Virus record (IMG/VR): IMGVR_UViG_3300021375_000191
Span: 1-21,653 of that record
From: a virus
Length of the DNA stretch: 21,653 nt
Strand: one strand, 5' to 3'
Shown: positions 7,863-21,653 of the stretch, in pieces
Numbering within the stretch: position 1 is the stretch's first letter
How the letters are laid out: each line of letters opens with the position of its first letter
The notes under the pieces: model-generated
Seen by the model: only the letters and a program-made list of their open reading frames with translations
What the model was told of the DNA's origin: nothing
Database searches by the model: none
Made by a program: the position numbers and the translations under genes

Positions 7863-7869
7863 TATTTAT
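7863..7869 (-). promoter_or_regulatory. Late promoter box for the 419-residue gene
   Basis: The minus-strand sequence GATAAATAC overlaps the gp17 TGA stop. A leader of about 17 bases with AAAGGA follows before the ATG at 7840. It matches the T4 late consensus TATAAATA except for the first base. Confidence 0.75.
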
Positions 7870-9428
7870 CATAAAATGCTAAACGGCATAGGTTCTTCAT
7901 AATCCTCATCTTGAGGTCTACCTTTTAGGTCCATGAACGCTCTATCTTCATATTTTGTTAACTCTAATGCCATGCGTACAATAAGTACTGCCGCCATTAC
8001 AAGATCATCCGTTTCGCCTTCTTTGGCGGAATAGCTATTACCCTTAGCACAAAATGTTTTTAATTCTTGTAAAAAGTTTCTACTAGCCACTTCCATCTTA
8101 TCTGTTTCTACCCACTGTTTTAACTTAGCACACGCTGTAACTTTGGATTTGTGAGTAGTTGTAAATCCACGTCTTAGCCTACCTGGTCCTGGCTTTTTAG
8201 GTTCAGTTAACATCGTGCCATATACGTTTTCTTCACCCAGTTCTTCTAACATGACTAGAGCCGCCTCACCAAGAGTATTGTTTTCAATACTATAGTAGAT
8301 ACTATCTTCATCAACGCCTTCAGTAACCATAAAATCACATATTTGTTTTATAATACCTATTTGACGTTGTATGGTTGTTTTATTGTGTTGCCATTCTGCC
8401 ACTTGCTTCATACCAGGCATCTCATATACTTGTATAGCACTATAGTCACCACCAGTACCTAAACTAGGATCTAATCCAACCAGATATATTTTATCTTTTT
8501 CCAACTTCTTATACCAACGTACTTGCCCCATTTTAGATGTTGGTTCTCTTGCTACCATATTAAATAATTTAATACTATCAATTAGGGTTTCATCATATGC
8601 GATAAATTCACAGTTGTGTTCACGCCTAAAACGCTCTTCACCAATTTTTGATTGTTCTTCTTTAGCCCACTCTTCATCTCTATCTGGGTGTACGTCCCAA
8701 GTTGCTAGGAAATGTGCAAATCCATTTCTACCAGTTTTTTGTTCATTGCCAAAATCATCAATACATTTACGTGCATCATTCCAAATTTGTGCAAATTGGT
8801 CATCATCTTGATTTGGTGTACTTGTAATAATACATTTACCACCTGTTGCTAGTGTAGGTGAAAGTGAAGTCCAGAATTCTCTGGCGATATTTGGTCTAAC
8901 AAATGCAAACTCGTCTAAGTAAACAAGTGATATGGACAAACCACGTCCTGTGTTTTCTGTAGTTGCTTGTGCAATAATACGTGAACCATTATCAAATTCT
9001 AAACTACCTTTATTATAACTTGTAACACCTGCTCTAATATGATTTGGAATGTGTTCATATGCAAATCTAATACGTTGCATAATCTCTTGAGCACCACTGT
9101 ATTTGTGTGCCGCTATAAGAATAGTTTGATCTGGATTAAACATTGCATACCATAACAAGTATCCTGCCGCACAGGTACTTTTACCTGTTTGCCGTGCAAG
9201 CATACTAATACTATATCTATAAGCATGATATGTGTCAACTAATTGTACTTGATAATCATATAATCCAAACTTCATACGACCCTTTGTTGGGTGTTGGATA
9301 TAACAAAAATTCATAAGGAAGTATTTAGGATCTTGCATACAATTTGCAAGATCTACAACTTGTTGCTCAGTATATTTTTCTTTTATATACGGAGTTTTAG
9401 TTAATTTTGTGTCTACTGTTCCTGCCAT
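7869..9428 (-). CDS. 17: gp17 large terminase subunit
   Basis: 519 residues from the ATG at 9428 (MAGTVDTKL). An upstream in-frame start would run 54 bases into the PP-loop gene and is unlikely. The protein is the packaging ATPase and headful nuclease that pumps DNA into the prohead. The ATPase domain has Walker A ARQTGKST (78-85) and Walker B LVYLDEF (about 168-174) with catalytic Glu. The following ITSTPN is the coupling motif. The C-terminal RNase H-like nuclease shows GLDPSLGTGGDYSAI, with the metal-binding Asp at 320, an acidic residue in YSIENN (382), and Asp474/475 in TDDLVMA. T4 gp17 is 610 residues. The ATG lies one base after the stop of the upstream gene. Confidence 0.95.
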   Translation of the reverse strand: MAGTVDTKLTKTPYIKEKYTEQQVVDLANCMQDPKYFLMNFCYIQHPTKGRMKFGLYDYQVQLVDTYHAYRYSISMLARQTGKSTCAAGYLLWYAMFNPDQTILIAAHKYSGAQEIMQRIRFAYEHIPNHIRAGVTSYNKGSLEFDNGSRIIAQATTENTGRGLSISLVYLDEFAFVRPNIAREFWTSLSPTLATGGKCIITSTPNQDDDQFAQIWNDARKCIDDFGNEQKTGRNGFAHFLATWDVHPDRDEEWAKEEQSKIGEERFRREHNCEFIAYDETLIDSIKLFNMVAREPTSKMGQVRWYKKLEKDKIYLVGLDPSLGTGGDYSAIQVYEMPGMKQVAEWQHNKTTIQRQIGIIKQICDFMVTEGVDEDSIYYSIENNTLGEAALVMLEELGEENVYGTMLTEPKKPGPGRLRRGFTTTHKSKVTACAKLKQWVETDKMEVASRNFLQELKTFCAKGNSYSAKEGETDDLVMAAVLIVRMALELTKYEDRAFMDLKGRPQDEDYEEPMPFSIL

Positions 9429-9429
9429 A

Positions 9430-10119
9430 TTAGTATTTACCAAAAGCCCAATTACGTTCTTTACACCACCAACATTCACCACAATGCGTTATCATCCAAC
9501 TAGGTTCATCTTTATTGTGTCTTGCTTCTTGTTCGCAACTACGAGTAAACGGAAATAAACTTTCCATTAAGTCAAAATGTTCATATAAGTATGCTATAAA
9601 TCGTTTATCAACACTCATCACTGGCATCCAACGTGTTACATCTTCACCAAGTTTACTAAATGCTGGACGGCTATGTCCTTTATCTCTTGGTTGATGTCTA
9701 CCCTTTAATAAGTATTCTATATCAAGTGGTGGATTCTGTGTTGTTCCGTGTACTGTAAATGTAATACCATGTATATCACGTATTAATCTTTCAGTATCAT
9801 TTAATTCTGTTCTTCTTTGATCATCACTATAAAATGTATAATGGCTTTTTATTAGCTCAGTACCAGTTAATTCTAGTATCTTATCTAATACAGTTGTTGA
9901 CCATTTAGCATTATACCAACCCTTAACTGGGTTTGCAGATGTTATAACGTGTATCTCTGCTTCAGGTATATTCTTTTCACAGTAGTTTATTAGCATCCAC
10001 AATAACACGGCGCTGTCTGCGCCACCTGAGATGTTCATACATATCTTAGTATGTGGTTCTGGAACAACAAATTTAATAGACTGACCAAAGCCGTCTTCAT
10101 AAGTAGTAATCGGTCGCAT
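9430..10119 (-). CDS. PP-loop ATPase, QueC-like
   Basis: 229 residues. The PP-loop SGGADSA at 31-37 is the ATP pyrophosphatase signature used to adenylate a carboxyl or carbonyl group. The C-terminal Cys195 ... Cys213-x2-Cys216-x2-Cys219 with a following Arg (CGECWWCKER) matches the zinc site of QueC (7-cyano-7-deazaguanine synthase). Middle features such as TVHGTTQNPP and RPAF are consistent with a substrate pocket but are not a classical QueC set. Phage QueC homologues can supply 7-deazaguanine for tRNA or for modified genomic DNA. A PAPS-reductase- or asparagine-synthetase-type PP-loop enzyme is the main alternative. It starts directly after the stop of the 63-residue gene and ends one base before gp17. 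Confidence 0.65.
   Translation of the reverse strand: MRPITTYEDGFGQSIKFVVPEPHTKICMNISGGADSAVLLWMLINYCEKNIPEAEIHVITSANPVKGWYNAKWSTTVLDKILELTGTELIKSHYTFYSDDQRRTELNDTERLIRDIHGITFTVHGTTQNPPLDIEYLLKGRHQPRDKGHSRPAFSKLGEDVTRWMPVMSVDKRFIAYLYEHFDLMESLFPFTRSCEQEARHNKDEPSWMITHCGECWWCKERNWAFGKY
9434..9440 (-). promoter_or_regulatory. Possible degenerate late promoter box for gp17
   Basis: The minus strand reads GGTAAATACTAATATG, 6 of 8 matches to TATAAATA, with the same 5 bases (CTAAT) between box and ATG as at the 63-residue gene. It lies inside the last codons of the PP-loop gene. If active, gp17 mRNA would be leaderless; if not, gp17 is read from upstream. Confidence 0.4.
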
Positions 10120-10311
10120 CTACTTGTCCATTAACTTAACTATTCTAGGTTTGAATAGTTTTTGGTCACCTTTTGTTGTTTTTAAAACAGGTTGGTTGTT
10201 TTCATCTGTAGTGAACCCTGTTACGACTGCTTTACGGTTTTTAAACTTGCCAACCATAACTTCGTCGCCTACCTTTATACTAGGTAATTTTAAGATGTCT
10301 TTTACTTTCAT
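10120..10311 (-). CDS. Small basic SH3/KOW-like protein, 63 residues
   Basis: A start at the ATG 10311 (MKVKDILKLPSIKVGDEV) is chosen; an in-frame TTG five codons upstream lies inside the late promoter. The protein is short, basic and strand-rich. The segment VGDEVMVGKFKNRKAVVTGF has the look of a small SH3-like or KOW-type barrel (x-V-G-D-x-V-x-V-G-x-F ... G). No function is known. A protein of this type often sits near the terminase in marine T4-like phages, as far as I recall. It is preceded by a terminator and an ATAAATA box, so it begins the transcription unit that contains the PP-loop ATPase and gp17. Confidence 0.65.
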   Translation of the reverse strand: MKVKDILKLPSIKVGDEVMVGKFKNRKAVVTGFTTDENNQPVLKTTKGDQKLFKPRIVKLMDK

Positions 10312-10316
10312 ATTAG

Positions 10317-10323
10317 TATTTAT
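10317..10323 (-). promoter_or_regulatory. Late promoter box for the 63-residue gene, PP-loop ATPase and gp17
   Basis: The minus strand reads GATAAATACTAATATG. The box ends exactly 5 bases before the ATG at 10311, leaving no room for a ribosome site, so the transcript is predicted to be leaderless. A terminator lies immediately upstream. Confidence 0.75.
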
Positions 10324-10334
10324 CAAGATAGAAA

Positions 10335-10355
10335 ACCCACGCTATTAGCGTGGGT
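10335..10355 (-). terminator. Rho-independent terminator after the 518-residue gene
   Basis: ACCCACGCT (10335-10343) and AGCGTGGGT (10347-10355) form a perfect 9-bp stem with a 3-base loop. The minus strand continues TTTTC. It lies 18 bases past the stop codon and directly before the next late promoter. Confidence 0.85.
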
Positions 10356-10373
10356 CTTTATACGCAAAAGCAA

Positions 10374-11930
10374 TTACTTAGCTTTGAAATTTTTATATGC
10401 GTTTGATAGTTTTTCTTTAGTGTGGCTTTCAGTAACATTAACTTTCATGTCCTGTGCATCTAAATAACGCTTAAGACTTAGGTTAACTGCTTGTGCAAAA
10501 TCATCATTTGCATCTCCAGCGTGTGCAGTTGGTTCTACTTCACCAACTCCTGCAGGAGTATTTGCCCACTCGTCTAATTTTTTATTAATTGCTTCTTCTG
10601 AAATTCCAGAATTTTTAAGCAAGTTAATAAGTTGTGTGGTATCCATTGTTGGGGACTCATCAAGTTCTTCTTTTTCGTCCTCATCTTCCATTTCTTCATC
10701 TTCAGTTACAGCATCTTCATCTGTTTCTTCTGATTCTACTTTGTATTTTTTACCATCAACTTCAAATTCTTTTTTGCCAGCTTTTCTAGCTTTTTCTAAT
10801 TCACCTGAGAATTCATTGCCTTCATTTGGCTCTTCATCAAGTTCTTTTTTAGCTTCGTCTAGCTCTTTTTCTGATTCTTTTTCCTCAGCCACTGGAGCCT
10901 TCTTTATTCCAGCAATCTGTAGGATTCTGTCTACTTCTTCCATAGTTCGCTCCTTATTTCTAATTGATTCATTTCCTTCACCGTAATCGGCTTCTAGATG
11001 GGCAGTACCCTCTTCTTGCATGCCTTGCTCAGACCAACTAACGGGCATATCAATGATATCACTAATTGCATCTTCAAATCCAGTGTCTGTATAAATTGTC
11101 CAAGGGCCATCGTGTTCTACTGAAACACTTGCATATCCATCGCCATCCTTATGAATTGAGATCTTTCCAACATTTACTGTATCAGTAACTGGTTCACCAC
11201 GCTTTTCGCCTTGCCAAATACTGTCGCCTGCAAGTTGTACAACATTGTTGTGATTAATTTGGTTAGTGTCTTCTCCAAGTTTTGATAACTTTTTCTGTAA
11301 TGCTAACATTTCACTTGAACGTTCAATGTTATAAGCCCGATTGTGGTCACCTTTTGCTTGGGCATCACTTGCCATTTGTTTTAACTTAGCCATTTGTGCT
11401 TTGAGTTTTTCTTTATCATTAGGCACATTAAGCTCATCAATTTGTTTTGATTCATCAAAATCAATATCCATATCATGATGGCGTTTATAATCTGCAACAA
11501 AGTCTTGAATTTGATCACCACTTAAATAACGAATCAGTTCATCTAATACTGCTTCTTCGCCTTCAATATCAACTAAGTTATAAATTGGTTCTGCAAATTC
11601 ACCAACTGCTTCAGTTGTTGATTCTCCACAGTTTTGGCAATTACAATCTGGTCCACAATTTCCGCCACATGCACAATCTGGGCCACAGCCACAATCTGAT
11701 TCTTGTACACTTTCATATTCACCTGGCCTAGCCATGTTTTTTGATCCTGCCCACTTTGCTAAACGTGCCGCCAACTTGGCCGCATCTTCTCTAGAAAGTT
11801 GAACATAACCTTTAGATCCAGTAAGTTGAATTGCTGTTCCATCTTTACTGGCGAATTGTTTTACATCAACGCCGCCGATGGAACCCATTTCAGTTCCTTC
11901 TGGAAGAATTCCTTTTTTGAGTTGTCTCAT
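10374..11930 (-). CDS. Large acidic protein with Cys cluster, probable head/prohead-associated
   Basis: 518 residues, no single named family. Residues 1-65 form a small domain (GSKGYVQLSREDAAKLAARLAKW is its helix end). Residues 80-101 contain eight Cys in 22 positions (80, 82, 86, 88, 92, 96, 98, 101) in a CGPDC/CxC layout like a metal-binding knot. Residues about 125-155 (ELIRYLSGDQIQDF) resemble a segment found in prohead-core-type proteins of marine phages. A helical charged part (170-220) is followed by a beta-rich domain (250-300). MEEVDRILQIAGI at 330-342 looks like an N-terminal leader motif fused inside. Residues 345-430 are very acidic, then a helical end. Start ATG 11930 has GGAGAAG upstream and overlaps the previous stop (ATGA). 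A capsid-internal role is inferred from context. Confidence 0.65.
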   Translation of the reverse strand: MRQLKKGILPEGTEMGSIGGVDVKQFASKDGTAIQLTGSKGYVQLSREDAAKLAARLAKWAGSKNMARPGEYESVQESDCGCGPDCACGGNCGPDCNCQNCGESTTEAVGEFAEPIYNLVDIEGEEAVLDELIRYLSGDQIQDFVADYKRHHDMDIDFDESKQIDELNVPNDKEKLKAQMAKLKQMASDAQAKGDHNRAYNIERSSEMLALQKKLSKLGEDTNQINHNNVVQLAGDSIWQGEKRGEPVTDTVNVGKISIHKDGDGYASVSVEHDGPWTIYTDTGFEDAISDIIDMPVSWSEQGMQEEGTAHLEADYGEGNESIRNKERTMEEVDRILQIAGIKKAPVAEEKESEKELDEAKKELDEEPNEGNEFSGELEKARKAGKKEFEVDGKKYKVESEETDEDAVTEDEEMEDEDEKEELDESPTMDTTQLINLLKNSGISEEAINKKLDEWANTPAGVGEVEPTAHAGDANDDFAQAVNLSLKRYLDAQDMKVNVTESHTKEKLSNAYKNFKAK

Positions 11931-12421
11931 TTTTCTTCTCCATCTTTACGCATGGCTAATAATTCTTGTACAAATTTTGTATTATATTTGTCACCGTAAT
12001 AATCTTCACCGTTGATTTTTTCTGCGTCATTGTAGTCTCCATCTTCTAAAATAGAGCCCTCAGGTTCAGCATCTGTTTGTGCCATCTCCTGCTGTTCAAG
12101 TGGTTCCATGTTACTTCTAACTTTCATGGCGCCATCACTTAAACCTAATAAACTTGAAATTTCTGTTTGTATTTGATAAGCACTTGCAGGACGTTGAGTT
12201 ACGAACTCAATTACATGTACCTCATATCCACGAGCTTGTGGGAAATCATAAGGGGCACTCTGAAGCATTAATTTCTTCGGTGCCTGTACACTTTTAACTT
12301 CATATTTTGCAAGATGGTTCTCTATACGTTCAATATCCGAATCGTCCATCGGGTGTATTGTTTTAATTCTATAAACGAACTCTTTCTTTGATTCCGTTAA
12401 ATATTCTTTGAATGTTTTCAT
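11927..12421 (-). CDS. Putative internal head protein with capsid-targeting N-terminus
   Basis: 164 residues, unknown family. The ATG at 12421 is chosen because GGAG precedes it by 9 bases and because the earlier in-frame ATG lies within the late promoter. The N-terminus MKTFKEYLTES closely resembles the capsid-targeting sequence of T4 internal proteins (MKTYQEFIAE), which is cut by the prohead protease gp21 after the (L/I)xE. Cleavage after LTE (residue 10) would be predicted here. The body has a mixed fold (about 14-85) and an acidic Asn/Asp-rich C-terminal half. It is followed, with a 4-base overlap, by the large Cys-cluster protein. A packaged internal or scaffold protein is the best guess. 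Confidence 0.6.
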   Translation of the reverse strand: MKTFKEYLTESKKEFVYRIKTIHPMDDSDIERIENHLAKYEVKSVQAPKKLMLQSAPYDFPQARGYEVHVIEFVTQRPASAYQIQTEISSLLGLSDGAMKVRSNMEPLEQQEMAQTDAEPEGSILEDGDYNDAEKINGEDYYGDKYNTKFVQELLAMRKDGEEK

Positions 12422-12440
12422 TTGTACATCTCCACTATAA

Positions 12441-12968
12441 TTATTTATCATTTTCCTTCATCTTTTGCATGATAGAATCAAGCATAGTACTGCGATCTCC
12501 TAAAAATTCTCCCTCTACTTCAGTAGGTTCATCTCCAGCTTCCTTCATATCTAACTTTCTTTCATCCAAATCTAGCTTTGCTTTACGCATTTGAAGTTCA
12601 ATCATCTTTAATTTTTTATCCATTTTATGTTGCTTGGCTTGTAATGCCGCTGATAACATTTTACTTGCACTATCAAATATTGGAGCCGCATGTCTATCTT
12701 CTACATTTTTTCCTAAATCACATAACTCATCAAATGTAATCATAGCTCTTTGTGCATAATCATCCATCTCTCTATCTACATCTTCTAAACCTTGTACAAC
12801 AGGTAATGAACTATCAATACGATTAGTCATATCAAGATCCTTTTGTACTAGTGCTATTTCATCTTTAGCTTCTTCCACTGTGATTTCTTCTTCTTGTTCA
12901 TCTTCAAGTGGAATTTTGATGTCTTCAATGGGCGGTAATCCCAATTCTTCTTCAAGTTTTTTTGTCAT
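12441..12968 (-). CDS. 16: gp16 small terminase subunit
   Basis: 175 residues; T4 gp16 is 164. It recognises concatemeric DNA and regulates the gp17 motor as a ring. The layout fits: an acidic N-terminal arm (about 1-40), then a central coiled-coil region. In the centre, DYAQRAMITFDELCDLGKNV is followed by APIFDSASKMLSAALQAK and a long charged helix KMDKKLKMIELQMRKAKLDL (about 115-140), and the tail is acidic. The segment corresponds to the conserved oligomerisation region of T4-like gp16. The ATG at 12968 has AAAAGGA 9 bases upstream, inside the end of gene 4 (4-base overlap). Unlike in T4, it is separated from gp17 by five genes. Confidence 0.75.
   Translation of the reverse strand: MTKKLEEELGLPPIEDIKIPLEDEQEEEITVEEAKDEIALVQKDLDMTNRIDSSLPVVQGLEDVDREMDDYAQRAMITFDELCDLGKNVEDRHAAPIFDSASKMLSAALQAKQHKMDKKLKMIELQMRKAKLDLDERKLDMKEAGDEPTEVEGEFLGDRSTMLDSIMQKMKENDK
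12442..12448 (-). promoter_or_regulatory. Late promoter box for the internal-head-protein gene
   Basis: GATAAATAATTATAG lies on the minus strand over the gp16 stop region. A leader of about 15 bases containing GGAG then leads to the ATG at 12421. Confidence 0.7.
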
Positions 12969-13414
12969 CTTTTTTTCCTTTTGGAATTTTGTGGCTTATT
13001 GAAAATTTCATTCTCTGTAATAACCCTAAATCCAAGTCCTTGCTTTGCACACCAAGCTCTTGCCGCTTCCCATTTTGCTTGATTCACAACAGCCGCCGCT
13101 TGATTTTGTGCTCCACGAGCTTCTCCCAATGTTTGTCCACTGGGTTTTATTTCTATAATTTCCGCTTTTCTGTTCTTATTCTTATCCTCATATACCATTA
13201 ACATATCGGGTACATAAGTTGTTGCTTTTCCAGTAAGTGGATTTTTATATGGAATTCTATGTGTTTCACTACCCCATGCAATAACATTAGGGTGGGCATC
13301 TGCCATTCTAAATACAGCTAATTCCCAACCACTTCTATATCTAGGTGCTCCTTTACCTACATATTTTTGTGGATTGTTTACTGTATATATACCTTGTTGA
13401 AACTTTCTCGCCAT
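12965..13414 (-). CDS. 4: gp4 head completion protein
   Basis: 149 residues, the same size as T4 gp4 (150). Shared features are the Lys/Asn-rich start with NPQKYVGKG, YRSGWELAVF, the block VIAWGSETHRIPYKNP (about 44-59), the YVPDMLMVYED strand, and EIIEIKPSGQT. The WGSE ... PD ... EIKP arrangement is reminiscent of TnsA/VSR-like nuclease folds, and T4 gp4 is needed to finish filled heads so that tails can attach. The C-terminus is strongly basic (NSKRKKR). The ATG at 13414 lies 5 bases after an AATAAATA late box with no ribosome site, and the gene overlaps gp16 by 4 bases. In T4 the gene sits beside 2/64 and 3, far from 16. Confidence 0.85.
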   Translation of the reverse strand: MARKFQQGIYTVNNPQKYVGKGAPRYRSGWELAVFRMADAHPNVIAWGSETHRIPYKNPLTGKATTYVPDMLMVYEDKNKNRKAEIIEIKPSGQTLGEARGAQNQAAAVVNQAKWEAARAWCAKQGLGFRVITENEIFNKPQNSKRKKR

Positions 13415-13419
13415 AATAC

Positions 13420-13426
13420 TATTTAT
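13420..13426 (-). promoter_or_regulatory. Late promoter box for gp4 and gp16
   Basis: The minus strand reads AATAAATAGTATTATGG, with exactly 5 bases between box and ATG. A leaderless transcript is predicted. Confidence 0.75.
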
Positions 13427-13444
13427 TACGGTAAGAACTGTTGG

Positions 13445-14125: not shown

Positions 14126-14129
14126 TTAC

Positions 14130-14756
14130 TTAACTGCCGCTACCGTCAGTTGTTGCTGATGTTCCACCGCCTGCGACAATACCGCCACTGGCTAATTCGT
14201 CAACTGCTGAGTTTTTAATTGTGTGTGCCGCATTATCATAACGAATAGTAGCAGTTACCTGTACCATATCACTTGATGAATAGTTTAAATCACCGTACTG
14301 TATGCTTGGAATAAAACATCCAACCATTTCCCATTTATCAAGTACTGCCGCATCTCCTTCATCAAATGCACCATCTAAAGTCTCAATAGAGAATTTAAAT
14401 TTATAATCTGCGCCTGATTTAGCTGATGCTTGTGTAGTGTGGTTAACTTGTTTTGATAACTGATGATCCAATGCCTTAATGACATTTCCATCTACATCAT
14501 CACGTAGTACAAGTGTTACGTCTGACCAGGTATGTTTACCAGCTAGACGAATTTTTGAGTTGTATGTGTCAACTGTGATATCTTCATGATCCAGTTGCGG
14601 TCTCGTTGCACTAATAATATTTGTTGTTATTAGTGGTTGTGCCGAGCTATCTGAACCGATTCCTTCAAATGTTACACGGAAACGGTATTGTAGTTTTGGC
14701 ATAAGTGTGCCTGACGCATTTGCGGTAGGGACACCAAAATTTGTAATTACAGCCAT
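14130..14756 (-). CDS. 19: gp19 tail tube protein
   Basis: 208 residues; T4 gp19 is 163. The family pattern is clear: LQYRFRVTFEGIG (about 22-34), ISATRPQLDHEDITVDTYNSK, LAGKHTWSDVTLVLRDDVDG, a central KWEMVGCFIPSIQYGDLNYSSSDMVQVTATIRYD near the C-terminus. Stacked hexamers form the inner tube through which DNA passes. A short Gly/Ser/Ala/Thr-rich tail (about 185-208) is extra relative to T4. The ATG at 14756 has AAAGGAG 8 bases upstream and a CATAAATAC late box within a longer inverted repeat. Confidence 0.92.
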   Translation of the reverse strand: MAVITNFGVPTANASGTLMPKLQYRFRVTFEGIGSDSSAQPLITTNIISATRPQLDHEDITVDTYNSKIRLAGKHTWSDVTLVLRDDVDGNVIKALDHQLSKQVNHTTQASAKSGADYKFKFSIETLDGAFDEGDAAVLDKWEMVGCFIPSIQYGDLNYSSSDMVQVTATIRYDNAAHTIKNSAVDELASGGIVAGGGTSATTDGSGS

Positions 14757-14778
14757 ATTAATCTCCTTTAGAAAAGTT

Positions 14779-14809
14779 CTTGCTATCTGTATTTATGCCA
14801 AATAGCAAG
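14779..14809. repeat. Inverted repeat enclosing the gp19 late promoter
   Basis: CTTGCTAT (14779-14786) and ATAGCAAG (14802-14809) are perfect 8-base arms around 15 bases that contain the ATAAATA box. As RNA from the upstream gene it forms a hairpin followed by AACTTTTC, so it may be a weak terminator of the oxygenase transcript. As DNA it flanks the promoter symmetrically. Confidence 0.6.
14790..14796 (-). promoter_or_regulatory. Late promoter box for gp19 and the second tube-like gene
   Basis: CATAAATAC on the minus strand, about 34 bases before the gp19 ATG, with AAAGGAG in the leader. Confidence 0.8.
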
Positions 14810-14820
14810 AAAAATTTCAT

Positions 14821-15501
14821 TTAGTTTCTTTGACAGTTAACACCCTTTATATCTTGTGGTGGTTGTGCAAATGGAAGAGCATTTAGAAGCCAATTAGTGC
14901 TGATCTCTAAATTTTCTTTCATTGAGTTGCCTGTCTCGCCCTTACTATGTAAGTGTACGCCTGCCGCTAAATGTACAGTACCATCTTTGAAACATACACC
15001 ACTGTGTACTTTTCTTGTGTTAACTGCGTACCAACGACGTGGTTCAAATTTTACGATTTTGCCATCGTGAATAAAAGTAAATTCATTCATATTAGTATTA
15101 TTAGCCCAGCAAATTAGACGTAGAGCATCGCCCCAAATCTCACCTGTTGGCTGTACTGACTTCCATTTATCTCTGTGTGGGAAAAGGAAATCACCACAAT
15201 CATATAGCATACAACCTACTTCAGTTGCATTGCTAGGTAACCCCCAGCCTTCAGGAACATGATTATATTCCCATCCGCCTTTTGGGCCATTTTCAGGACC
15301 AGCCATTTGCGCCGTTTTAGTTGGTCTCTGTCTTTTAATCAATTCAGGTCTACTATTCATCTCAATACATTGCTGTATTACATCTTCTGGAACCCATGCA
15401 TCTAGCTCAATAATATCGCCAGCACTCTGGAATAACCATTGTGTAGTCAAGTAAGGGATCTCTTTTGCCTGAATATCTGTTGTTGTGTTGAACATGTCCA
15501 T
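14821..15501 (-). CDS. 2OG-Fe(II) oxygenase-like protein (Asp/Asn hydroxylase type)
   Basis: 226 residues from the ATG at 15501 (MDMFNTTTDIQ), chosen because GGGAG lies 8 bases upstream; a GTG 16 codons earlier lies in palindromic leader sequence. The iron-binding facial triad is readable: FPHRDKW (His109, Asp111) and RKVHSGV (His166), spaced as in jelly-roll dioxygenases. RRWYAVNTRKVHSG resembles the distal segment of aspartyl/asparaginyl beta-hydroxylases. A preceding Arg (128, RLICW) is in family-typical position. Such enzymes hydroxylate residues in protein substrates. It stands alone between gp18 and gp19 with its own terminator upstream and late promoter, so a virion protein is a possible substrate. 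Substrate and activity are inferred. Confidence 0.6.
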   Translation of the reverse strand: MDMFNTTTDIQAKEIPYLTTQWLFQSAGDIIELDAWVPEDVIQQCIEMNSRPELIKRQRPTKTAQMAGPENGPKGGWEYNHVPEGWGLPSNATEVGCMLYDCGDFLFPHRDKWKSVQPTGEIWGDALRLICWANNTNMNEFTFIHDGKIVKFEPRRWYAVNTRKVHSGVCFKDGTVHLAAGVHLHSKGETGNSMKENLEISTNWLLNALPFAQPPQDIKGVNCQRN

Positions 15502-15513
15502 ATTAGAACTCCC

Positions 15514-15547
15514 AATTTTTACGTAAAAATTTGGAGGATATTCCTCC
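15514..15547. repeat. Two adjacent palindromes in the oxygenase leader
   Basis: AATTTTTACGTAAAAATT (15514-15531) is a perfect 18-base palindrome. GGAGGA/TCCTCC (15533-15538 and 15542-15547) forms a second hairpin that holds a GGAGG sequence. Both lie between the late promoter at 15553 and the ATG at 15501 and could fold in the mRNA leader, one hiding a decoy ribosome site. Confidence 0.65.
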
Positions 15548-15552
15548 ACTTG

Positions 15553-15559
15553 TATTTAT
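15553..15559 (-). promoter_or_regulatory. Late promoter box for the 2OG oxygenase-like gene
   Basis: GCATAAATACAAG on the minus strand, directly downstream of the gp18 terminator and about 51 bases before the ATG. Confidence 0.75.
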
Positions 15560-15571
15560 GCAAATCGGCCA

Positions 15572-15603
15572 TAAAAAAAGCGGGCATTTAATACCCGCTT
15601 TCT
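15572..15603 (-). terminator. Rho-independent terminator after gp18
   Basis: AAAGCGGG (15577-15584) pairs with CCCGCTTT (15594-15601), and inner bases extend the stem with a wobble pair. The minus strand continues as a run of seven T. It isolates the highly expressed sheath gene. Confidence 0.9.
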
Positions 15604-15623
15604 TAATTTATTAATTAGCTAAA

Positions 15624-18077
15624 TTAGCTAAGTTCGCCTGTATTAACAATACGAATTGGAATGTATATAAATTCAGCCGCTTTAGTTGGCTCAATAGCTA
15701 CATCAATATATAGTTCGTTTGCATCAATACGTGCTGGTGTGTTGTTTGTTGTATCACAAACTGTTGCATAATCATATACACCACGTTGCGTTAGGATATT
15801 TGATAGGAACCCATCAAATGTTGCCTTAGCATTACGTCTTGTATTTGAGTCATTTGGCTCAAACAAGTAAGGTCTACCAATTACTGCAAAACGCTCTCTT
15901 AGATAAGCTGTAAGTCTTGCAACGTTAACTCTATCTAATGCACTTGCACTTGCCGCTAGAGTTTTCTGACCGAAGATTAAAATACCTTCACTTGGGAATC
16001 TAGCAATTGGATTCAACTTCTTGTTGTACATTGCATCTCTATCACCTTGTGTTAGAGAAACTGCAACAAATTCGTTTTCACTATTAATGTATCCAACGTT
16101 AGTTGCATTTTGTACTACACCACGTGTTAGACCCGCTGGAGCAAACCATTGGAAACTAACGCTATCACTGTATGCATAAGAGTAAAGTACTGAATGTGAT
16201 GCAGGAGCAACAACATTCTTACCACTTACTGGATCAGTTGTGTAAACACTAGGATAATAAGCCGCACCATATGTGTTGCTACTTACTAGTCCATCTTCAC
16301 CGTTAGCTGTAGCGCCTGTACCTTGTACCCACGTTACTGCTTCTGTTGGTGTTTTACGGAATGGTGAATCGATAATGCAGAATGCAGTTTCGTTTCTATC
16401 ACTATTCAATGTAAACATTTCGTCTGCCATTTCAGGATAACCTGGAGCCGCAATTAAACGGAAGTTAACATTTTCTTCACGTAGTTTTGTGTTAGCCGCT
16501 GAAGCTTGCATAGCCGCCACAACAACAATACGCTGTGCTTTTCTACCAAAAGAACCGCTACCGTCTGGTTGGTTACCAGCTTTATTGCGCCACTTCCAAG
16601 TAGTTGTTAATGAAGTATCATATTCTTTAACAGTATTAGCTGATCTACACATGTTAACCGCAGTTGTACCTGTTGGGTAAACTAGTGGATTAGGACCATT
16701 TGTTAATACGTCTGCCGCTACAACATATGTTCCAGCCGCTTTTGCTAAAGATGTAATATCACCAAACACAACACCAGAAGATGTTGATTGGTCTGTATTA
16801 TCTTTTGCTACCCAAGATGTACCATTGTGTCTATAGATTTTTGGATAATTTGCATCATCTGTATCTACCCAGTAGTCACCAGCCGCTAGTGCGTTTCCGC
16901 CTGAGTCAGTTGTTGGTGCCGCTGTAGTGTATTGTACGTCTGAAGCTTTTACCCATTTTTGAACACCACTATCTACTGCTACTTCAAAAATGTCTAAGTC
17001 GTTTACATCACCATCAAACCAAATTGTTTTGTCTGTTGGGTTACCAGTTGGCTGTGTAATTGAAGCTTCCATTACATAACCACCAGTTGCTACAGAACTA
17101 GATGTACTAATGTTATCAAATTGTGTATTTGCAGAATCATAACGCAGAACTGCAATAATACCAGTCGTTGCATCAACATCATACCAAATATCACCTTCTA
17201 CTAATGTTCTAGCCGCGCCTGCAGATCCATCTTGATTGATGTCTCCGGATACGCCTGTAGGTGCCAACGCTTGTGCATACGTTCCTGCTACTTTAGTAAA
17301 AGCTGATGTTGCTGTTGTATACAATGCCAAGTAAATATCTAAACCAGAGCCTGGTGTAGTTGTTTTAACCCAAACATCACCTGCTGTAGGTGAACTTGGT
17401 GCAGTGTAGTGTGGAGCAAAAGAACGATCATTTGCTGTAAATGATGCGTCTAATACGTCCCAAGCGCCTGAAACGCCTTTGTAATAATATAGTTGTGTAT
17501 CATTGGCATCGTTAACTACTTCAACTAAGTAGGCACCATTAACTACAGCCGCTGATGCGGAACCTGCAGTTGATACAATTTCTACTGTTGGTGTTTGTAC
17601 TTCCCATGAACCATTGGATTGATATTCGTGAATACCAAACTTAGTAGAAGATGGGTTTAGCCAATATGTGTTATTCGCCGCAGGACCTGTTGGTGCAGAA
17701 CTTGCAGGACGTAGTTGTGTTAGGTTAACATCAGCTCGCATAATATATGCTGAAGATGCTTGACCAAGAAAACTATAAGCCGCTAACAAACCATATTCGT
17801 TTGTTTCGTCGCCCTGTTGAACTGTGGATGATACCTGTCTAATGTCAACATTACCATAATACTGTGTAAGTTCACGTTGTGAAGTTACTAGTATAGGTGT
17901 GTTGGCATTGGCTTTCTTTGTGTATTTTGCAATACTATCAGTTTCTGTTCCAGTTGGATCTGTCTTGTCACTACCTGTTGCAATAAACAACATAGGGACA
18001 GTACCAGCACCCGCTGGACCATAAACTGACTCGTCTGTTACTGAAACCTGTACGCCAGGTGAAACAAGATTTGCCAT
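15624..18077 (-). CDS. 18: gp18 tail sheath protein with repeat-rich insert
   Basis: 817 residues; T4 gp18 is 659. It forms the contractile sheath. The N-terminus MANLVSPGVQVSVTDESVYG and the C-terminal third hold the conserved core, including FPSEGILIFGQKTL, an RVNVARLTAYLRE segment and NELYIDVAIEPTKAAEFIYI at the end. Between about 124 and 425 lies an insert with at least five degenerate copies of a short beta motif of the form P-x-x-G-D/N-x-W-x-D ... I/Y-x-Y/H-x-S/N-G-x-W. Examples are NTYWLNPSS (about 136), GDVWVKTT (233), GDIWYDVD (295), KTIWFDGD (350) and GDYWVDTD (400). The insert replaces the outer domains of T4 gp18 and probably faces outward. The ATG at 18077 has AAGGAG 9 bases upstream. 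Confidence 0.95.
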   Translation of the reverse strand: MANLVSPGVQVSVTDESVYGPAGAGTVPMLFIATGSDKTDPTGTETDSIAKYTKKANANTPILVTSQRELTQYYGNVDIRQVSSTVQQGDETNEYGLLAAYSFLGQASSAYIMRADVNLTQLRPASSAPTGPAANNTYWLNPSSTKFGIHEYQSNGSWEVQTPTVEIVSTAGSASAAVVNGAYLVEVVNDANDTQLYYYKGVSGAWDVLDASFTANDRSFAPHYTAPSSPTAGDVWVKTTTPGSGLDIYLALYTTATSAFTKVAGTYAQALAPTGVSGDINQDGSAGAARTLVEGDIWYDVDATTGIIAVLRYDSANTQFDNISTSSSVATGGYVMEASITQPTGNPTDKTIWFDGDVNDLDIFEVAVDSGVQKWVKASDVQYTTAAPTTDSGGNALAAGDYWVDTDDANYPKIYRHNGTSWVAKDNTDQSTSSGVVFGDITSLAKAAGTYVVAADVLTNGPNPLVYPTGTTAVNMCRSANTVKEYDTSLTTTWKWRNKAGNQPDGSGSFGRKAQRIVVVAAMQASAANTKLREENVNFRLIAAPGYPEMADEMFTLNSDRNETAFCIIDSPFRKTPTEAVTWVQGTGATANGEDGLVSSNTYGAAYYPSVYTTDPVSGKNVVAPASHSVLYSYAYSDSVSFQWFAPAGLTRGVVQNATNVGYINSENEFVAVSLTQGDRDAMYNKKLNPIARFPSEGILIFGQKTLAASASALDRVNVARLTAYLRERFAVIGRPYLFEPNDSNTRRNAKATFDGFLSNILTQRGVYDYATVCDTTNNTPARIDANELYIDVAIEPTKAAEFIYIPIRIVNTGELS

Positions 18078-18098
18078 TTGGAGTTCTCCTTCTCAAAA

Positions 18099-18115
18099 GA
18101 GGACGTTATGTCCTC
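18099..18115 (-). promoter_or_regulatory. 5' hairpin in the gp18 leader
   Basis: GAGGAC (18099-18104) and GTCCTC (18110-18115) pair around 5 bases, near the expected 5' end of the mRNA that starts after the late box at 18123-18129. A hairpin at this spot could protect an abundant mRNA from decay. This role is inferred. Confidence 0.55.
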
Positions 18116-18122
18116 ATACGAA

Positions 18123-18129
18123 TATTTAT
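18123..18129 (-). promoter_or_regulatory. Late promoter box for gp18
   Basis: CGATAAATATTCG on the minus strand, about 45 bases before the ATG, in the gap after the dNMP kinase gene. Confidence 0.8.
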
Positions 18130-18172
18130 CGAAACCGTCAAATATAGTGCGTTTATAGAATTATATATAGTG

Positions 18173-18787
18173 TTAATGGAGTTTTTTGAGTACTTCTAAC
18201 TGAAGTTCATCGTATGATTTTGTGTTATCTATAGATACATCAAAATCCCAGCCTGCCCAGCTAAATTCGCTTGGATGAATATCTGGATATTTAGACATTA
18301 AGTCTTTTTGGTTTTTAGTATTGGCTCTTACAGCATATTCCCACCATTCAGGTTTGTCATTACGCCAAACAACGGCAGTTGTACCACCTAACTTTTTAAT
18401 AATATTAAGTTCATTAAAAAATCTACAATCTGAAATAACAACGTTCTTATCAGTCATTTCAATTTGTCTTTCACAGGCGGCTACCCAAATATCTGGATGG
18501 AAATGTGTACGCAATACATCAGTACCTACATACTGCAATGCATAACGTGGGGTAAAGTTGGGTATGTCTAGTCGCTTACTCCACCATTCATCAGGCATTT
18601 CTCTAAACGCTCTGCTTTCAGGTGTATTTCCTTCTAAAAGAATTCTATCCCAACCAAAAATACTTGCACAAGCATCTTTCAATACTCCTGCAAAACTGAT
18701 ACGTTGATAGCCTTCTGCAATTAAAAATCCAGCGGCCGTATCTTTTCCGTGACCAATTAAGCCACATATACCAATAACTTTTTTCAT
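18173..18787 (-). CDS. Deoxynucleoside monophosphate kinase (T4 gp1-like)
   Basis: 204 residues. The P-loop GLIGHGKDT at 9-17 with the following AAGFL helix matches T4 gene 1-type dNMP kinases, which phosphorylate dTMP, dGMP and modified dCMP for phage DNA synthesis. Further conserved-looking parts are RISFAGVLKD (about 29-38), RYALQYVGTDVLR (81-93), WVAACERQI, and VVISDCRFFNEL, where the Asp follows a hydrophobic strand as in Walker B. T4 gp1 is 241 residues. It has its own TTGACA-N17-TATAAT promoter with the ATG 6 bases after the -10 box and no ribosome site, so the mRNA should be leaderless. As an early enzyme between two late virion genes, the separate promoter makes sense. Confidence 0.85.
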   Translation of the reverse strand: MKKVIGICGLIGHGKDTAAGFLIAEGYQRISFAGVLKDACASIFGWDRILLEGNTPESRAFREMPDEWWSKRLDIPNFTPRYALQYVGTDVLRTHFHPDIWVAACERQIEMTDKNVVISDCRFFNELNIIKKLGGTTAVVWRNDKPEWWEYAVRANTKNQKDLMSKYPDIHPSEFSWAGWDFDVSIDNTKSYDELQLEVLKKLH

Positions 18788-18793
18788 GCTTGT

Positions 18794-18822
18794 ATTATAC
18801 TAAATTATGAGGGGATTGTCAA
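18794..18822 (-). promoter_or_regulatory. sigma70-type promoter for the dNMP kinase
   Basis: TTGACA (18822-18817), a 17-base spacer and TATAAT (18799-18794), both perfect. Six bases (ACAAGC) separate the -10 box from the ATG at 18787, so the start site is expected on the A of the ATG. Confidence 0.85.
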
Positions 18823-18830
18823 CCTAAAAA

Positions 18831-19568
18831 TTAACCAATTACAAAACTTAAACCAGTGCTACCATCATTATATAAGGTTAGTTCAGTTTCTAATTTGTCA
18901 ATTTCTGCTTGTGCATCTTGTCTAAGTTGATCTGCGTTCATTGTAGTTCCACCTTGTGGTCCTGCAATCTGTGTAAACTTACCACGTGCTTCTGCAAGGA
19001 TTAAACGAGCATGTGCAAACGCATAATCCTTTAACCAAGGACCTGCATATGTATCTTCTAAAAGATTCTCTTCTGGACGGTAATTAAAGACGTGTAACAC
19101 AACGGAATCTTCTGCTTTAATCATACGTTGTAATATTAGTCTTTTAGTTTGAGGGCGCCAAGTAAACATAAGTTCTGCACCAAACAGTCTACCCATTGTT
19201 TCTCTGTATTGATGTAACATATCAAACATTTGAAGTCCACCAGGACGATGAGCTCCTAATACATATGTTTGTAGATATGCCGCTTGGAAAGGTTCTATGT
19301 CATTGCCTGTTCCACTGCTTACGCCAGTAGTACGTCTGTAAATATCTTTGACTTCCATTACTTCATTAGGTAATGTATATTCACTTACTTCTTTTTGCAG
19401 AGTCATATTAATGAAGCTTTCTTCAACTGCATTTTCTGCTCGTTGTCTGTACTTCTGTATACTCTTATCAATGGCTAATTCATAGTGTTCAGGGTCCAAC
19501 TCAACGTCGACCATTTGCCCACCAAGTCTTAGTTCCATTTCTTTTATTAAATCATTACGTTTGGCCAT
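18831..19568 (-). CDS. gp13-like neck / head-tail connector protein
   Basis: 245 residues. The N-terminal part (VDVELDPEHYELAIDKSIQKYRQRAE) and the C-terminal part fit the neck (gp13/adaptor) family of T4-like phages. The C-terminal segment is PWLKDYAFAHARLILAEARGKF, then a Gly-Gly loop (IAGPQGGTTMNADQL) and a closing helix with EIDKLETEL. Between lies a beta-rich stretch (VSEYTLPNEVMEVKDIYRR ... RLILQ ... VVLHVFNYRP). T4 gp13 is 309 residues and seals the portal under the tail; this is shorter. The ATG at 19568 has GAGG 9 bases upstream and a late box inside the end of the previous gene. A paralogous structural protein is possible. Confidence 0.55.
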   Translation of the reverse strand: MAKRNDLIKEMELRLGGQMVDVELDPEHYELAIDKSIQKYRQRAENAVEESFINMTLQKEVSEYTLPNEVMEVKDIYRRTTGVSSGTGNDIEPFQAAYLQTYVLGAHRPGGLQMFDMLHQYRETMGRLFGAELMFTWRPQTKRLILQRMIKAEDSVVLHVFNYRPEENLLEDTYAGPWLKDYAFAHARLILAEARGKFTQIAGPQGGTTMNADQLRQDAQAEIDKLETELTLYNDGSTGLSFVIG

Positions 19569-19578
19569 AGTTTTACCT

Positions 19579-19905
19579 CTACTTGTATTTATTACAGAAG
19601 TGAAGGCAGACGTCAGAAGGTTCTGTAGTCCAGCCTGGATAATAGATATTATCCTGATATTGCTTATGATTCTGTATATTTTCTAAGTGATGATGCTCTA
19701 AACTGTTCCAATTTGGTTCATCCTTTAAACTTTTCTCAAATGATTCATCTCTTACAGGAACTTCATCAGCAATATTACGCTCGCCATATATACTCGCATA
19801 ATGACAGCATGGAAATACTTGCATACTACTATCCAAATAAAACCCTCTGGTTTTCTCATTATGAAAACTACAGTATACTTTGCAGTTCTTCTCTAGTTCG
19901 CTCAT
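19579..19905 (-). CDS. SPASM/twitch-like Fe-S domain, downstream half of a split radical SAM enzyme
   Basis: 108 residues. Cys8, Cys12, Cys33, Cys34, Cys100 and Cys104 are arranged like the auxiliary 4Fe-4S cluster domain of radical SAM enzymes. The block GFYLDSSMQVFPCCHYA corresponds to the usual 'x-D-x-x-G/Q-x-V-x-P-C' core, and a terminal CLHFCNKY closes the domain. On its own it has no catalytic core. Its ATG at 19905 lies within the end of the radical SAM gene (38-base overlap, +1 frame), with only a weak ribosome site. In relatives these two parts are normally one protein of about 300 residues. It is therefore the C-terminal half, made by reinitiation, by frameshifting, or separated by a mutation or sequence error. 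Confidence 0.65.
   Translation of the reverse strand: MSELEKNCKVYCSFHNEKTRGFYLDSSMQVFPCCHYASIYGERNIADEVPVRDESFEKSLKDEPNWNSLEHHHLENIQNHKQYQDNIYYPGWTTEPSDVCLHFCNKYK
19586..19592 (-). promoter_or_regulatory. Late promoter box for the gp13-like gene
   Basis: AATAAATACAAG on the minus strand is formed by the last codons (Asn-Lys-Tyr-Lys) of the SPASM-like gene. The leader carries GAGG before the ATG at 19568. Confidence 0.75.
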
Positions 19906-20473
19906 CTATTTGTCCAAACGGGCCATTGGGCCACTTAAATCTAATAGGAATATTATTAGAATTTGCAAAAGTTTTTGCTAACGGTATTTGTTCTTTGTTC
20001 CAATCAAACATTAAATATTCCCATGTACCTTTACCACCGTTATAAAACCAAGCATACATGTTTGTCCATGCTTTTTCCCAATTAACACCTTCTCTATATT
20101 TCCAATTTGTATCGTGATCAATGCCATCAATACTCCATGTTATTTTTAAGCGTCTATTTTTAGCATTCTTTCTATAAAATTCTGAACCTCTTAGGCCACC
20201 ATTGGTGTTTATACTTACATAACCGATTGCAGTAAGGTTGTCTATATAGTCTTGTATTTTGGGGTGCATCATTGGATCGCCATATTCACCACATAAGTCA
20301 TATGTCATATTCAATCCTTTTGTTTTTTCAACAATAGAATTTAATTCCAGGTCACTCATGTGTTTAAGGACAAGCCAAGGTACAGTTTCACCTGTTTCGG
20401 TTACTGTACGCCGGCATGTCCTACATTTTGCTTGGCAATAATTAGTAATATTCAGTTCTAAACTGTAGTCCAT
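19868..20473 (-). CDS. Radical SAM protein (catalytic half)
   Basis: 201 residues. Near the N-terminus NITNYCQAKCRTC gives the CX3CX2C motif (Cys13, 17, 20) that binds the 4Fe-4S cluster used to cleave S-adenosylmethionine. YDLCGEYGDPMMHP at about 58-71 is the GGE-like SAM-binding strand followed by a typical 'G-D/E-P-x-x-x-P'. YVSINTNGG and RLKITWSIDGID are later barrel strands. The protein stops after a partial barrel (about residue 201) and the Cys-rich auxiliary domain follows in another frame. The substrate is unknown; SPASM-type enzymes often modify peptides or proteins. The ATG at 20473 lies 5 bases after a perfect TATAAATA, with no ribosome site. Confidence 0.85.
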   Translation of the reverse strand: MDYSLELNITNYCQAKCRTCRRTVTETGETVPWLVLKHMSDLELNSIVEKTKGLNMTYDLCGEYGDPMMHPKIQDYIDNLTAIGYVSINTNGGLRGSEFYRKNAKNRRLKITWSIDGIDHDTNWKYREGVNWEKAWTNMYAWFYNGGKGTWEYLMFDWNKEQIPLAKTFANSNNIPIRFKWPNGPFGQIDERTREELQSIL

Positions 20474-20477
20474 ACAG

Positions 20478-21653
20478 TTATTTATAGGTAGCCAATATTA
20501 CCGTTTCTGCGTTAAATCTACCATTAAGTTTTGTCTCAGTTGTTTTGAGTAATCCAAACTCTTTTAAAGCTCTAACTTTTGTTGTCTTTTTAAAAGTAGA
20601 TAACTGTTCTTGTGGTTTTCGTAGTGTTTTCTGCAAACTAGTTTCTTCGTTATATTCCAATAACGTTGTACCTCTAACTGCAAATCCATCTGAATCGTTA
20701 GCAACGTATATACCCAGTTTACGATTCTTAGTATTAAAAATAATACATGCTACTGCACCAATAAGTTTTTCTGGTGGTTCACTAGCAATACCATATTCAG
20801 TATCACTCATCTTAAACTTTAACTTTTTAACTTTTTCAGCCACACTCTTTTCTTTAATTTTACGTGGCTTACGTGTTGCTTTGCTTTCTGCAATAACAAT
20901 ATCACATGCATCCATAATTTTCTTATAGATTAGAAGAGCCGCCGCCTTCTGCTTGTTGTCATAATGCTCATATCCTTCAGCAAGTTGAGCCCACATATCT
21001 GCTTCATGTTCATCCATAAGTTTTAGTTGGGTTGCGGTTGGCATATTATTAAGCATTACCATTTCATCATAAGAAGCATCATAAAAATTCTTAATAATCC
21101 GAGCATGATTTGCTTTAGTTCCCTGTCTATTGAATATCTTCAAGGGCTCAAACTTTTTAACAATAGCTGGATCTGGATTAACTAACCATTCATCAACTAG
21201 ACTTTCAATATCATCTGTCATATTCATGGCCGCTTCTCGCATAACTTCTTGAATACTAGGCTTATAAAATCTACCTAATCTTTCCTTTTCAGCGGCTTCA
21301 TGGCGTTCTTTTTCTTCTACAAGTTTAGAACCCCTATCAATAGCTTCTTGAATTGTTTTCTTTAACCAAACAGTAGTAGGTTGCATAGAGCCCATAGTGC
21401 CTGGCATGCTCTCCCAATACTCATTTTCAGCTTCGCAATAATCAGGCATACCTAGTGTTAACAATCTTGAATGAATAGCAACATAGGGAGATATGTGTGG
21501 AGCCGCTTTTAGGCTACGTATATCTTCCTTGGTGTAACCATTAGCAATCATCCAAGTCCATGTATATTGATGATTATCTTTATGACTTGTTAGGGTATAA
21601 TAGTCTTCAATAGCACGGTGCTTAGTTCTATGAAACTTTACTCCATCCCATTT
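20478..21653 (-). CDS. Protein of unknown function, partial (start outside window)
   Basis: 391 codons are open from the window edge to the stop at 20478. An ATG at 21551 exists, but the 34 codons before it (starting KWDGVKFHRTKHRAIEDYYTLT) read like real coding sequence, so the true start lies beyond base 21653. No family is recognised. The visible part has a long charged helical middle (about 85-130 of the visible part, rich in Glu/Lys/Arg) and further helices around residues 200-240. It then has a basic linker (KATRKPRKIKEKSVAEKVKK) and a C-terminal beta-rich domain of about 110 residues (IGAVACIIFNTKNRKLGIYVAN). A DNA-binding or virion role is possible; the sequence gives no decisive motif. 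Confidence 0.7.
   Translation of the reverse strand, partial: KWDGVKFHRTKHRAIEDYYTLTSHKDNHQYTWTWMIANGYTKEDIRSLKAAPHISPYVAIHSRLLTLGMPDYCEAENEYWESMPGTMGSMQPTTVWLKKTIQEAIDRGSKLVEEKERHEAAEKERLGRFYKPSIQEVMREAAMNMTDDIESLVDEWLVNPDPAIVKKFEPLKIFNRQGTKANHARIIKNFYDASYDEMVMLNNMPTATQLKLMDEHEADMWAQLAEGYEHYDNKQKAAALLIYKKIMDACDIVIAESKATRKPRKIKEKSVAEKVKKLKFKMSDTEYGIASEPPEKLIGAVACIIFNTKNRKLGIYVANDSDGFAVRGTTLLEYNEETSLQKTLRKPQEQLSTFKKTTKVRALKEFGLLKTTETKLNGRFNAETVILATYK
20479..20486 (-). promoter_or_regulatory. Perfect TATAAATA late promoter for the radical SAM gene
   Basis: The only full 8-base match to the T4 late consensus in the window. It overlaps the Tyr-Lys-stop codons of the upstream gene (TAT AAA TAA) and ends 5 bases before the ATG, which predicts a leaderless transcript. 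Confidence 0.85.

Follow-up and report, generated by a model that had tools for sequence, protein, structure and literature searches.

The late genes of the window, which is the whole stretch of 21,653 nucleotides that was analysed, very probably form one T4-type late regulon with two translation modes. Late promoter boxes standing exactly five bases before a start codon (N5) would yield leaderless mRNAs, and the other late boxes would yield mRNAs with leaders that carry a Shine-Dalgarno (SD) sequence. The N5 arrangement has a fixed geometry, is enriched in the window and is conserved among its relatives. The window belongs to a marine relative of phage T4. Many other marine phages have the same arrangement, but T4 and most cyanophages in the comparison lack it.

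Octamers resembling TATAAATA stand upstream of late genes, as is the case for T4-type late promoters. The first-pass annotation had described a 5-base distance between box and ATG at the radical SAM gene, gp4, a 63-residue gene and gp17, and the same distance was recovered at all four, each of which reads TAAATA-N5-ATG. The boxes and their genes are as follows.

20479 to 20486, minus strand: late box TATAAATA, separated by actgt from the ATG at 20473
19868 to 20473, minus strand: radical SAM protein gene, predicted leaderless (phrog_21308; PF04055 at 1.4e-6, slightly below the curated cut-off)
13420 to 13427, minus strand: late box AATAAATA, separated by gtatt from the ATG at 13414
12965 to 13414, minus strand: gp4-like head-closure/TnsA-like nuclease gene, predicted leaderless (phrog_218 at 5e-38, PF08722 at 1.2e-21)
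10317 to 10324, minus strand: late box GATAAATA, separated by ctaat from the ATG at 10311
10120 to 10311, minus strand: 63-residue gene, predicted leaderless (open reading frame only)
9434 to 9441, minus strand: late box GGTAAATA, separated by ctaat from the ATG at 9428 and overlapping the end of the QueC-like gene
7869 to 9428, minus strand: gp17 terminase large subunit gene, predicted leaderless (phrog_36964 at 3.9e-138, PF03237)

The 63-residue gene is the weakest of the four cases, since it had no match in a family search with Pfam/PHROG-type profiles and recurs solely in the near-identical contig L002. No close DNA relative of the window was found in the phage collection. The string TAAATAN5ATG occurs six times in the window against 0.87 expected, and none of 100 dinucleotide shuffles reached six. 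The fifth copy (18115 to 18128, minus strand) is the gp18 promoter, where the ATG at +1 opens a mini-ORF of three codons. The sixth copy (20012 to 20025, plus strand) is antisense within the radical SAM gene and seems to be a chance occurrence.

The absence of SD sequences from the four N5 starts and their presence at gp18 (AAGGAG), gp19 (AAAGGAG) and the 419-residue gene (AAAGGA) were likewise borne out. The absence is partly geometric, since box and spacer fill positions -13 to -1. Further SD-bearing genes in the window encode proteins of 245 (GAGGT), 164 (GGAG) and 226 (GGGAG) residues. The late boxes with leaders are as follows.

19586 to 19593, minus strand: late box AATAAATA, 17 nt before the ATG at 19568 of the head-tail adaptor gene, SD GAGGT
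18123 to 18130, minus strand: late box GATAAATA, 45 nt before the gp18 ATG at 18077, SD AAGGAG; the transcript is predicted to start with ATGAGGACATAA and to carry a 5' hairpin
15553 to 15560, minus strand: late box CATAAATA, 51 nt before the ATG at 15501, SD GGGAG, two leader hairpins
14790 to 14797, minus strand: late box CATAAATA, 33 nt before the gp19 ATG at 14756, SD AAAGGAG
12442 to 12449, minus strand: late box GATAAATA, 20 nt before the ATG at 12421, SD GGAG
7863 to 7870, minus strand: late box GATAAATA, 22 nt before the ATG at 7840 of the 419-residue head protein gene, SD AAAGGA

The distances between ATAAATA boxes (n = 473) and gene starts were collected from 14 marine contigs, with the N5 counts requiring an ATG near the 5' end of an open reading frame. 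The distribution is bimodal, with 53 sites at exactly 5, a second mode at 16 to 25 and a nearly empty interval from 9 to 15. The 53 N5 sites belong to 30 gene families, and about a fifth of the boxes in these contigs that have a gene start at most 60 nt away have it at exactly N5. Twenty other 7-mers of the same A5T2 composition exhibit no independent spacing peak. The N5 peak is present in 13 large relatives pooled and also in HTVC008M and Mosig. The first-pass annotation had asked whether box and ATG are randomly spaced genome-wide and in relatives; instead, a sharp peak at 5 is followed by a near-empty gap. An apparent N5 family of 82 residues (MRKLRS..., 14 loci) was an intragenic coding coincidence removed by the same filter, and the raw N5 matches of Agrobacterium phage Atu_ph07 also disappeared on ORF filtering.

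The two classes of start differ in their flanking sequence. An SD match of at least 4 nt is found at 5 of 53 N5 starts and at 122 of 137 leadered starts. A pyrimidine occupies position -1 at 52 of the 53 N5 starts compared with 850 of 2039 among all starts (p = 1e-18), and this near-exclusive pyrimidine is a sharpened initiator. At the equivalent position, 59 of the 137 leadered promoters have A, a frequency that is expected if wobble of the start site is tolerated only with a leader. The sixth position past the box is A-rich in both classes, and the A found there in 86 of the 137 leadered promoters agrees with the T4-derived start of transcription about 6 bases past the box. In 17 genomes, the ATG opens a reading frame of at least 50 residues at 75 of 84 N5-ATG sites; a GTG at N5 does so at a single site and a TTG nowhere.

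Orthologues of the gp17, head-tail adaptor and head protein genes alternate between N5 starts lacking an SD and SD starts. The gp17 gene has N5 at 32 of the 52 loci with a located start and most of the others have an SD instead; the site behind the shared QueC-like 3' end is filled by either TAAATA-N5 or GGGAG. The head-tail adaptor and 419-residue head protein genes, both leadered with an SD in the window, have N5 orthologues in three relatives (G004, G007, and G009) and one relative (G008), respectively. The gp4 gene retains the N5 arrangement in G002, G006, and G008.

In two divergent gene pairs, one in G003 and one in HTVC008M, the ATGs are a mere 26 bp apart, a gap made up of two adjoining 13-bp promoters. 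Divergent paired boxes were sought in a scan of viral contigs, and 16 contigs had them at N5, two at N4 and two at N6. The scan is taken as supporting evidence only because several hits are one sequence in two contigs and reading frames flank both sides for only some of them.

T4 late boxes occupy positions -13 to -6 (PMC1524935), and T4 late promoters depend on gp55, gp33, and gp45 (PMC1524935, PMC2988020). The boxes described here belong to the T4 octamer family (NATAAATA, including GG/CT variants). They would be read by a gp55-like sigma factor, and by analogy with T4 transcription at an N5 box would begin at the first base of the ATG. The 5' end predicted from this spacing is leaderless, and the ribosome would bind the 5'-terminal AUG directly, with no SD pairing. 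Other late genes would be read from this promoter type too, but with an SD-bearing leader of about 11 to 20 nt or longer, and genes could swap modes in evolution. The leaderless reading is further supported by the pyrimidine at -1, the switching orthologues and the 26-bp divergent promoters. The likeness to T4 includes a predicted start about one helical turn downstream of the box, SD-leadered genes in the same genomes, and gp55 homologues in relatives. By profile, these homologues were identified in G002, G003, G004, G006, PA5oct, HTVC008M, Mosig, and Melnitz; the window fragment itself contains no gp55-like gene.

It is quite improbable that the N5 genes are translated mainly by reinitiation on polycistronic read-through mRNA, with the N5 promoter contributing little protein. 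An upstream stop precedes the window gp17 start by 1 nt and the radical SAM start by 4 nt, so read-through with reinitiation could also operate at these two genes, and many N5 genes in the 17 genomes have a nearby upstream stop, in many cases the TAA within the box. However, the nearest upstream stop on the same strand is at least 30 nt away in 35 of 86 N5 genes, 11 of the 86 have none within 400 nt, and in the divergent N5/N5 pairs neither gene is preceded by another on its strand. Reinitiation also requires neither an exact 5-base spacing nor a pyrimidine at -1.

The N5 box might instead act in the mRNA as an A/U-rich ribosome-binding signal of non-SD type, since it lies at a fixed distance where such a site would be and takes the place of the SD at gp17. 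This is very unlikely, as an identical box precedes a separate SD in the class spaced at 16 to 25, the A-rich sixth position is common to both classes, and the box matches the late promoter of T4, whose gp55 has homologues in the relatives. Even less credible is a true start farther downstream, at an in-frame ATG preceded by an SD of its own, the N5 ATG then being only a +1 ATG of the leader. The mini-ORF at the gp18 promoter is such a case, and in HTVC008M gp4 an internal ATG lies 14 codons into the gene. An in-frame ATG with an SD lies within 20 codons in only 3 of 71 N5 genes, compared with 6 of 169 leadered genes, and the conserved N-termini of gp17 and gp4 orthologues begin at the N5 ATG; downstream starts were rejected for most N5 genes on the former count. 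Chance might be suspected from the window alone, which has only four sites, one with a weaker box. Its probability is negligible, since the shuffles and the 7-mer controls exclude it statistically and the peak returns in the pooled relatives, HTVC008M and Mosig.

The dual-mode late regulon can be compared with known systems. Classic phage leaderless mRNAs of the lambda cI type serve single regulatory genes. They share with the predicted N5 mRNAs a start codon at the extreme 5' end, the almost exclusive use of AUG and the lack of an SD, whereas the N5 sites form a promoter class over structural, packaging, and auxiliary genes alongside leadered genes. The description of two modes as unusual for a T4-like phage holds, since no ATAAATA-N5-gene arrangement was found in T4, RB49, KVP40, Syn9, or S-PM2; their ATAAATA boxes lie at least 10 nt from the start, except for two isolated shorter cases in S-PM2. 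In contrast, the SAR11 phages HTVC008M and Mosig and the OM43 phage Melnitz (pelagimyophages/marine Kyanoviridae) all exhibit the N5 peak, as do the pooled relatives of the window. HTVC008M gp17 is only about 33% identical to the window gp17. The jumbo phage AR9 also has its own late promoters, but its late transcripts have long 5' UTRs of 26 to 491 nt, the opposite of the prediction here (PMC5312081). Full-text searches, whose coverage excluded most subscription journals, returned no earlier description of leaderless late mRNA in T4-like phages.

If the leaderless reading is true, the textbook T4 late-promoter system serves two modes of translation in phages that are abundant in the ocean, and a 13-bp promoter alone is enough for leaderless expression of a gene, so that late genes could be packed back to back or 26 bp apart head-to-head. 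The N5 rule would then be a simple finder of late promoters in pelagimyophages, where their prediction was reported to have failed (PMC7029224), and would correct start-codon calls. It would also pose the question of how the late-infection ribosomes of SAR11-like hosts handle leaderless messages.

A phage gene for the ribosomal protein bS21 is present in HTVC008M, Mosig, Melnitz, G001, G007, G008, PA5oct, and Atu_ph07 and was not found in T4, KVP40, Syn9, or S-PM2. PA5oct and Atu_ph07 have bS21 though they show little or no N5, and the regions upstream of the bS21 genes exhibit no consistent late box. It is a tentative and rather unlikely proposal that the dual-mode late regulon evolved independently in two distant marine T4-like lineages and adapts them to the translation machinery of their streamlined marine hosts, with bS21 helping the ribosome to favour the leaderless class. 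In 400 kb of SAR11 chromosomal DNA, TANAAT-N6-ATG occurs 11 times against about 4, only a weak signal that faintly hints at leaderless promoters in the host.

Ten coding-strand late-type boxes with a downstream gene were identified in the window. Four are separated from the start codon by exactly 5 bases (N5), and six lie farther upstream (spacings of 17, 20, 22, 33, 45, and 51) with a transcript leader carrying a Shine-Dalgarno sequence (SD), here termed leadered. The exact 5-base gap reported in the first-pass annotation is present at all four sites it named. Its SD contrast is also reproduced, as all four N5 starts lack an SD and all six leadered genes have one. TAAATAN5ATG was found 6 times in the window versus 0.87 expected, and none of 100 dinucleotide shuffles reached 6. 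Two leadered transcripts exhibit predicted leader structures:

Window 18077-18130, minus strand: gp18 transcript, predicted to open with the ATG of a 3-codon mini-ORF (ATGAGGACATAA) folded in a 5' hairpin (GAGGAC...GUCCUC) and followed by the SD; folding z is only -1.5, and the hairpin may stabilise the 5' end of the message of a highly expressed gene.
Window 15501-15547, minus strand: leader of the 226-aa gene, with two hairpins (GGAGGAAUAUCCUCC and AAUUUUUACGUAAAAAUU) ahead of the SD GGGAG; z is -2.0.

The window is a fragment of a T4-like phage, and its 21,653 bases are the entire record. The main genes (gp17 terminase, gp4-like head closure, gp18 tail sheath, gp19 tail tube, head-tail adaptor, radical SAM, and others) are all on the minus strand. 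No near DNA match was found among 50,697 phage records. The nearest isolate group to the window gp17 is Pseudomonas jumbo phage PA5oct (53% identity), and identity to the gp17 of T4, cyanophage, and Pelagibacter phage HTVC008M is about 31-33%. Relatives of this gp17 are encoded in hundreds of viral contigs, the best 80 being 61-98% identical. The source is called marine on the grounds that its relatives group with phages from seawater and on the sampling that this grouping would imply.

The relatives were selected on gp17 similarity and contig size, and gene starts were set by ORF rules rather than annotation. To avoid sampling one locus, the analysis was extended to contigs from 13 relatives (G001-G013, 51-205 kb) and to reference phages. 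The first-pass annotation had proposed recurrence of the gap genome-wide and in relatives as its check, and a sharp peak was indeed observed. ATAAATA in the window and the contigs of the 13 relatives gave 53 sites at a spacing of 5, 15 summed over 6-15, and 106 at 16-25, with at least one N5 site in all 13 contigs. The 53 sites fall in 30 protein families, thus the peak does not come from repeated counting of a single gene. Among 81 relatives, the spacing from NATAAATA to an ORF-opening ATG gave 55 counts at 5, 6 at either neighbour, and almost none beyond until a broad mode at 16-24. When all 21 7-mers of composition A5T2 were compared, only ATAAATA and its register-shifted forms exhibited the peak. 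Because of the in-frame TAA in the box, the ORF filter favours spacings divisible by 3 and is thus biased against 5, not toward it. Besides N5, there is a minor N6 family (box-N5-A-ATG) as well as an N8 group (G001, G003, G005, and G013; 123-aa gene), and these spacings would give predicted leaders of 1 or 3 nt.

The T4 late box spans -13 to -6 (PMC1524935), so N5 sets the predicted +1 at the first base of the start codon, and the late mRNA would be leaderless, as proposed earlier. Homologues of gp55, the T4-type late sigma factor, in four relatives and PA5oct support the late-promoter assignment. An SD match of at least 4 was found at 5 of 53 N5 starts versus 122 of 137 leadered starts, a shortage that is partly forced by the box itself, which takes up the place of the SD. 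C or T directly precedes the ATG at 52 of 53 N5 starts versus 42% of all starts (p=1e-18); at the same position of leadered promoters, pyrimidine is 53% and A is common. We infer that a pyrimidine-purine step would fix the start, wobble being affordable with a leader but not for leaderless genes. The N5 start codons are 75 ATG and 1 GTG. Almost no sites fall at spacings of 9-15, where the leader would not be long enough to hold an SD. Divergent late genes exactly 26 bp apart were identified at two loci:

G003:114164-114191, both strands: divergent pair (locus L189) in a relative.
HTVC008M 18916-18943, both strands: divergent pair in this SAR11 phage.

The spacer consists of two abutting 13-bp late promoters (CATGCTACTATTTATATATAAATATAAGTATG), a predicted minimal bidirectional promoter, and two such promoters back to back leave no space for a leader. 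When 2.9 million viral contigs were scanned for paired divergent boxes, these were N5 in 16 contigs, N4 in 2, and N6 in 2. The SD contrast, the -1 pyrimidine, the ATG use, the empty 9-15 range, and the divergent pairs all fit the leaderless reading.

Reinitiation from read-through mRNA is a possible reading at the window gp17 and radical SAM gene, where the upstream stop lies 1 nt and 4 nt before the start, respectively. At many N5 genes (17 genomes; distance 8), the TAA of the TAAATA box doubles as the stop of the gene before it. However, at 46 of 86 N5 genes no ORF on the same strand ends in the 30 nt upstream, and reinitiation is hard to invoke for these 46. Alternative downstream start codons could be the real starts, but they are rare. 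The box is unlikely to be a non-SD ribosome binding site, since it is also found upstream of true SDs.

For leaderless and leadered modes, individual genes differ among relatives. TAAATA-N5 precedes gp17 at 32 of 52 loci with a located start. At many other gp17 loci, the same 11 bases after the same 3' end of the upstream QueC-like gene resemble GGGAGATATTA (SD), and the N5 promoter is instead on the QueC-like gene. In the window, both the adaptor gene (17, GAGGT) and the 419-aa head gene are leadered, but the former is N5 in G004, G007, and G009 and the latter in G008. For gp4, N5 is shared by the window with G002, G006, and G008. There appear to be two discrete solutions, with each gene picking one. 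The biggest single N5 protein family (8 of 53 sites) consists of the window radical SAM gene and similar Cys-motif proteins (e.g. window 20473, G004 136812/136856, G006 34164). These data suggest that mobile auxiliary genes bring the compact promoter along.

The N5 peak is also exhibited by the isolates HTVC008M (9 ATAAATA and 12 TAAATA sites), Mosig (6 sites), and Melnitz (3 sites). N5 after ATAAATA is absent in T4, RB49, KVP40, Syn9, and S-PM2 (RB49 and KVP40 analysed in part), consistent with the earlier claim that two modes are unusual for a T4-like phage. In partly analysed genomes, N5 was found at 2 of 140 boxes in PA5oct, once in 120 kb of S-SRM01, and not in 400 kb of Atu_ph07. The leadered mode was found in all phages compared, with or without N5. 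N5 thus occurs in two T4-like lineages that are distant from each other and is missing from the close cyanobacteria-infecting cousins of HTVC008M, which in this small sampling suggests that it was gained or lost repeatedly, perhaps in a host-linked manner.

The predicted leaderless mRNAs may or may not be translated efficiently by the hosts; a 400-kb stretch of SAR11 DNA exhibits only a weak excess of TANAAT-N6-ATG. The ribosomal protein bS21 (PF01165) was looked for in T4, KVP40, Syn9, and S-PM2 and not found. It is encoded in six N5 phages, including HTVC008M, Mosig, and Melnitz, and also in PA5oct and Atu_ph07. Among the window-phage relatives, it is encoded at:

G001:112174-112329: bS21.
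G007:30335-30487: bS21.
G008:8568-8723: bS21.

A connection between phage bS21 and leaderless translation is speculation; the HTVC008M bS21 has been reported to be incorporated into E. coli ribosomes, where GFP translation was cut to ~5% (PMC6375957).
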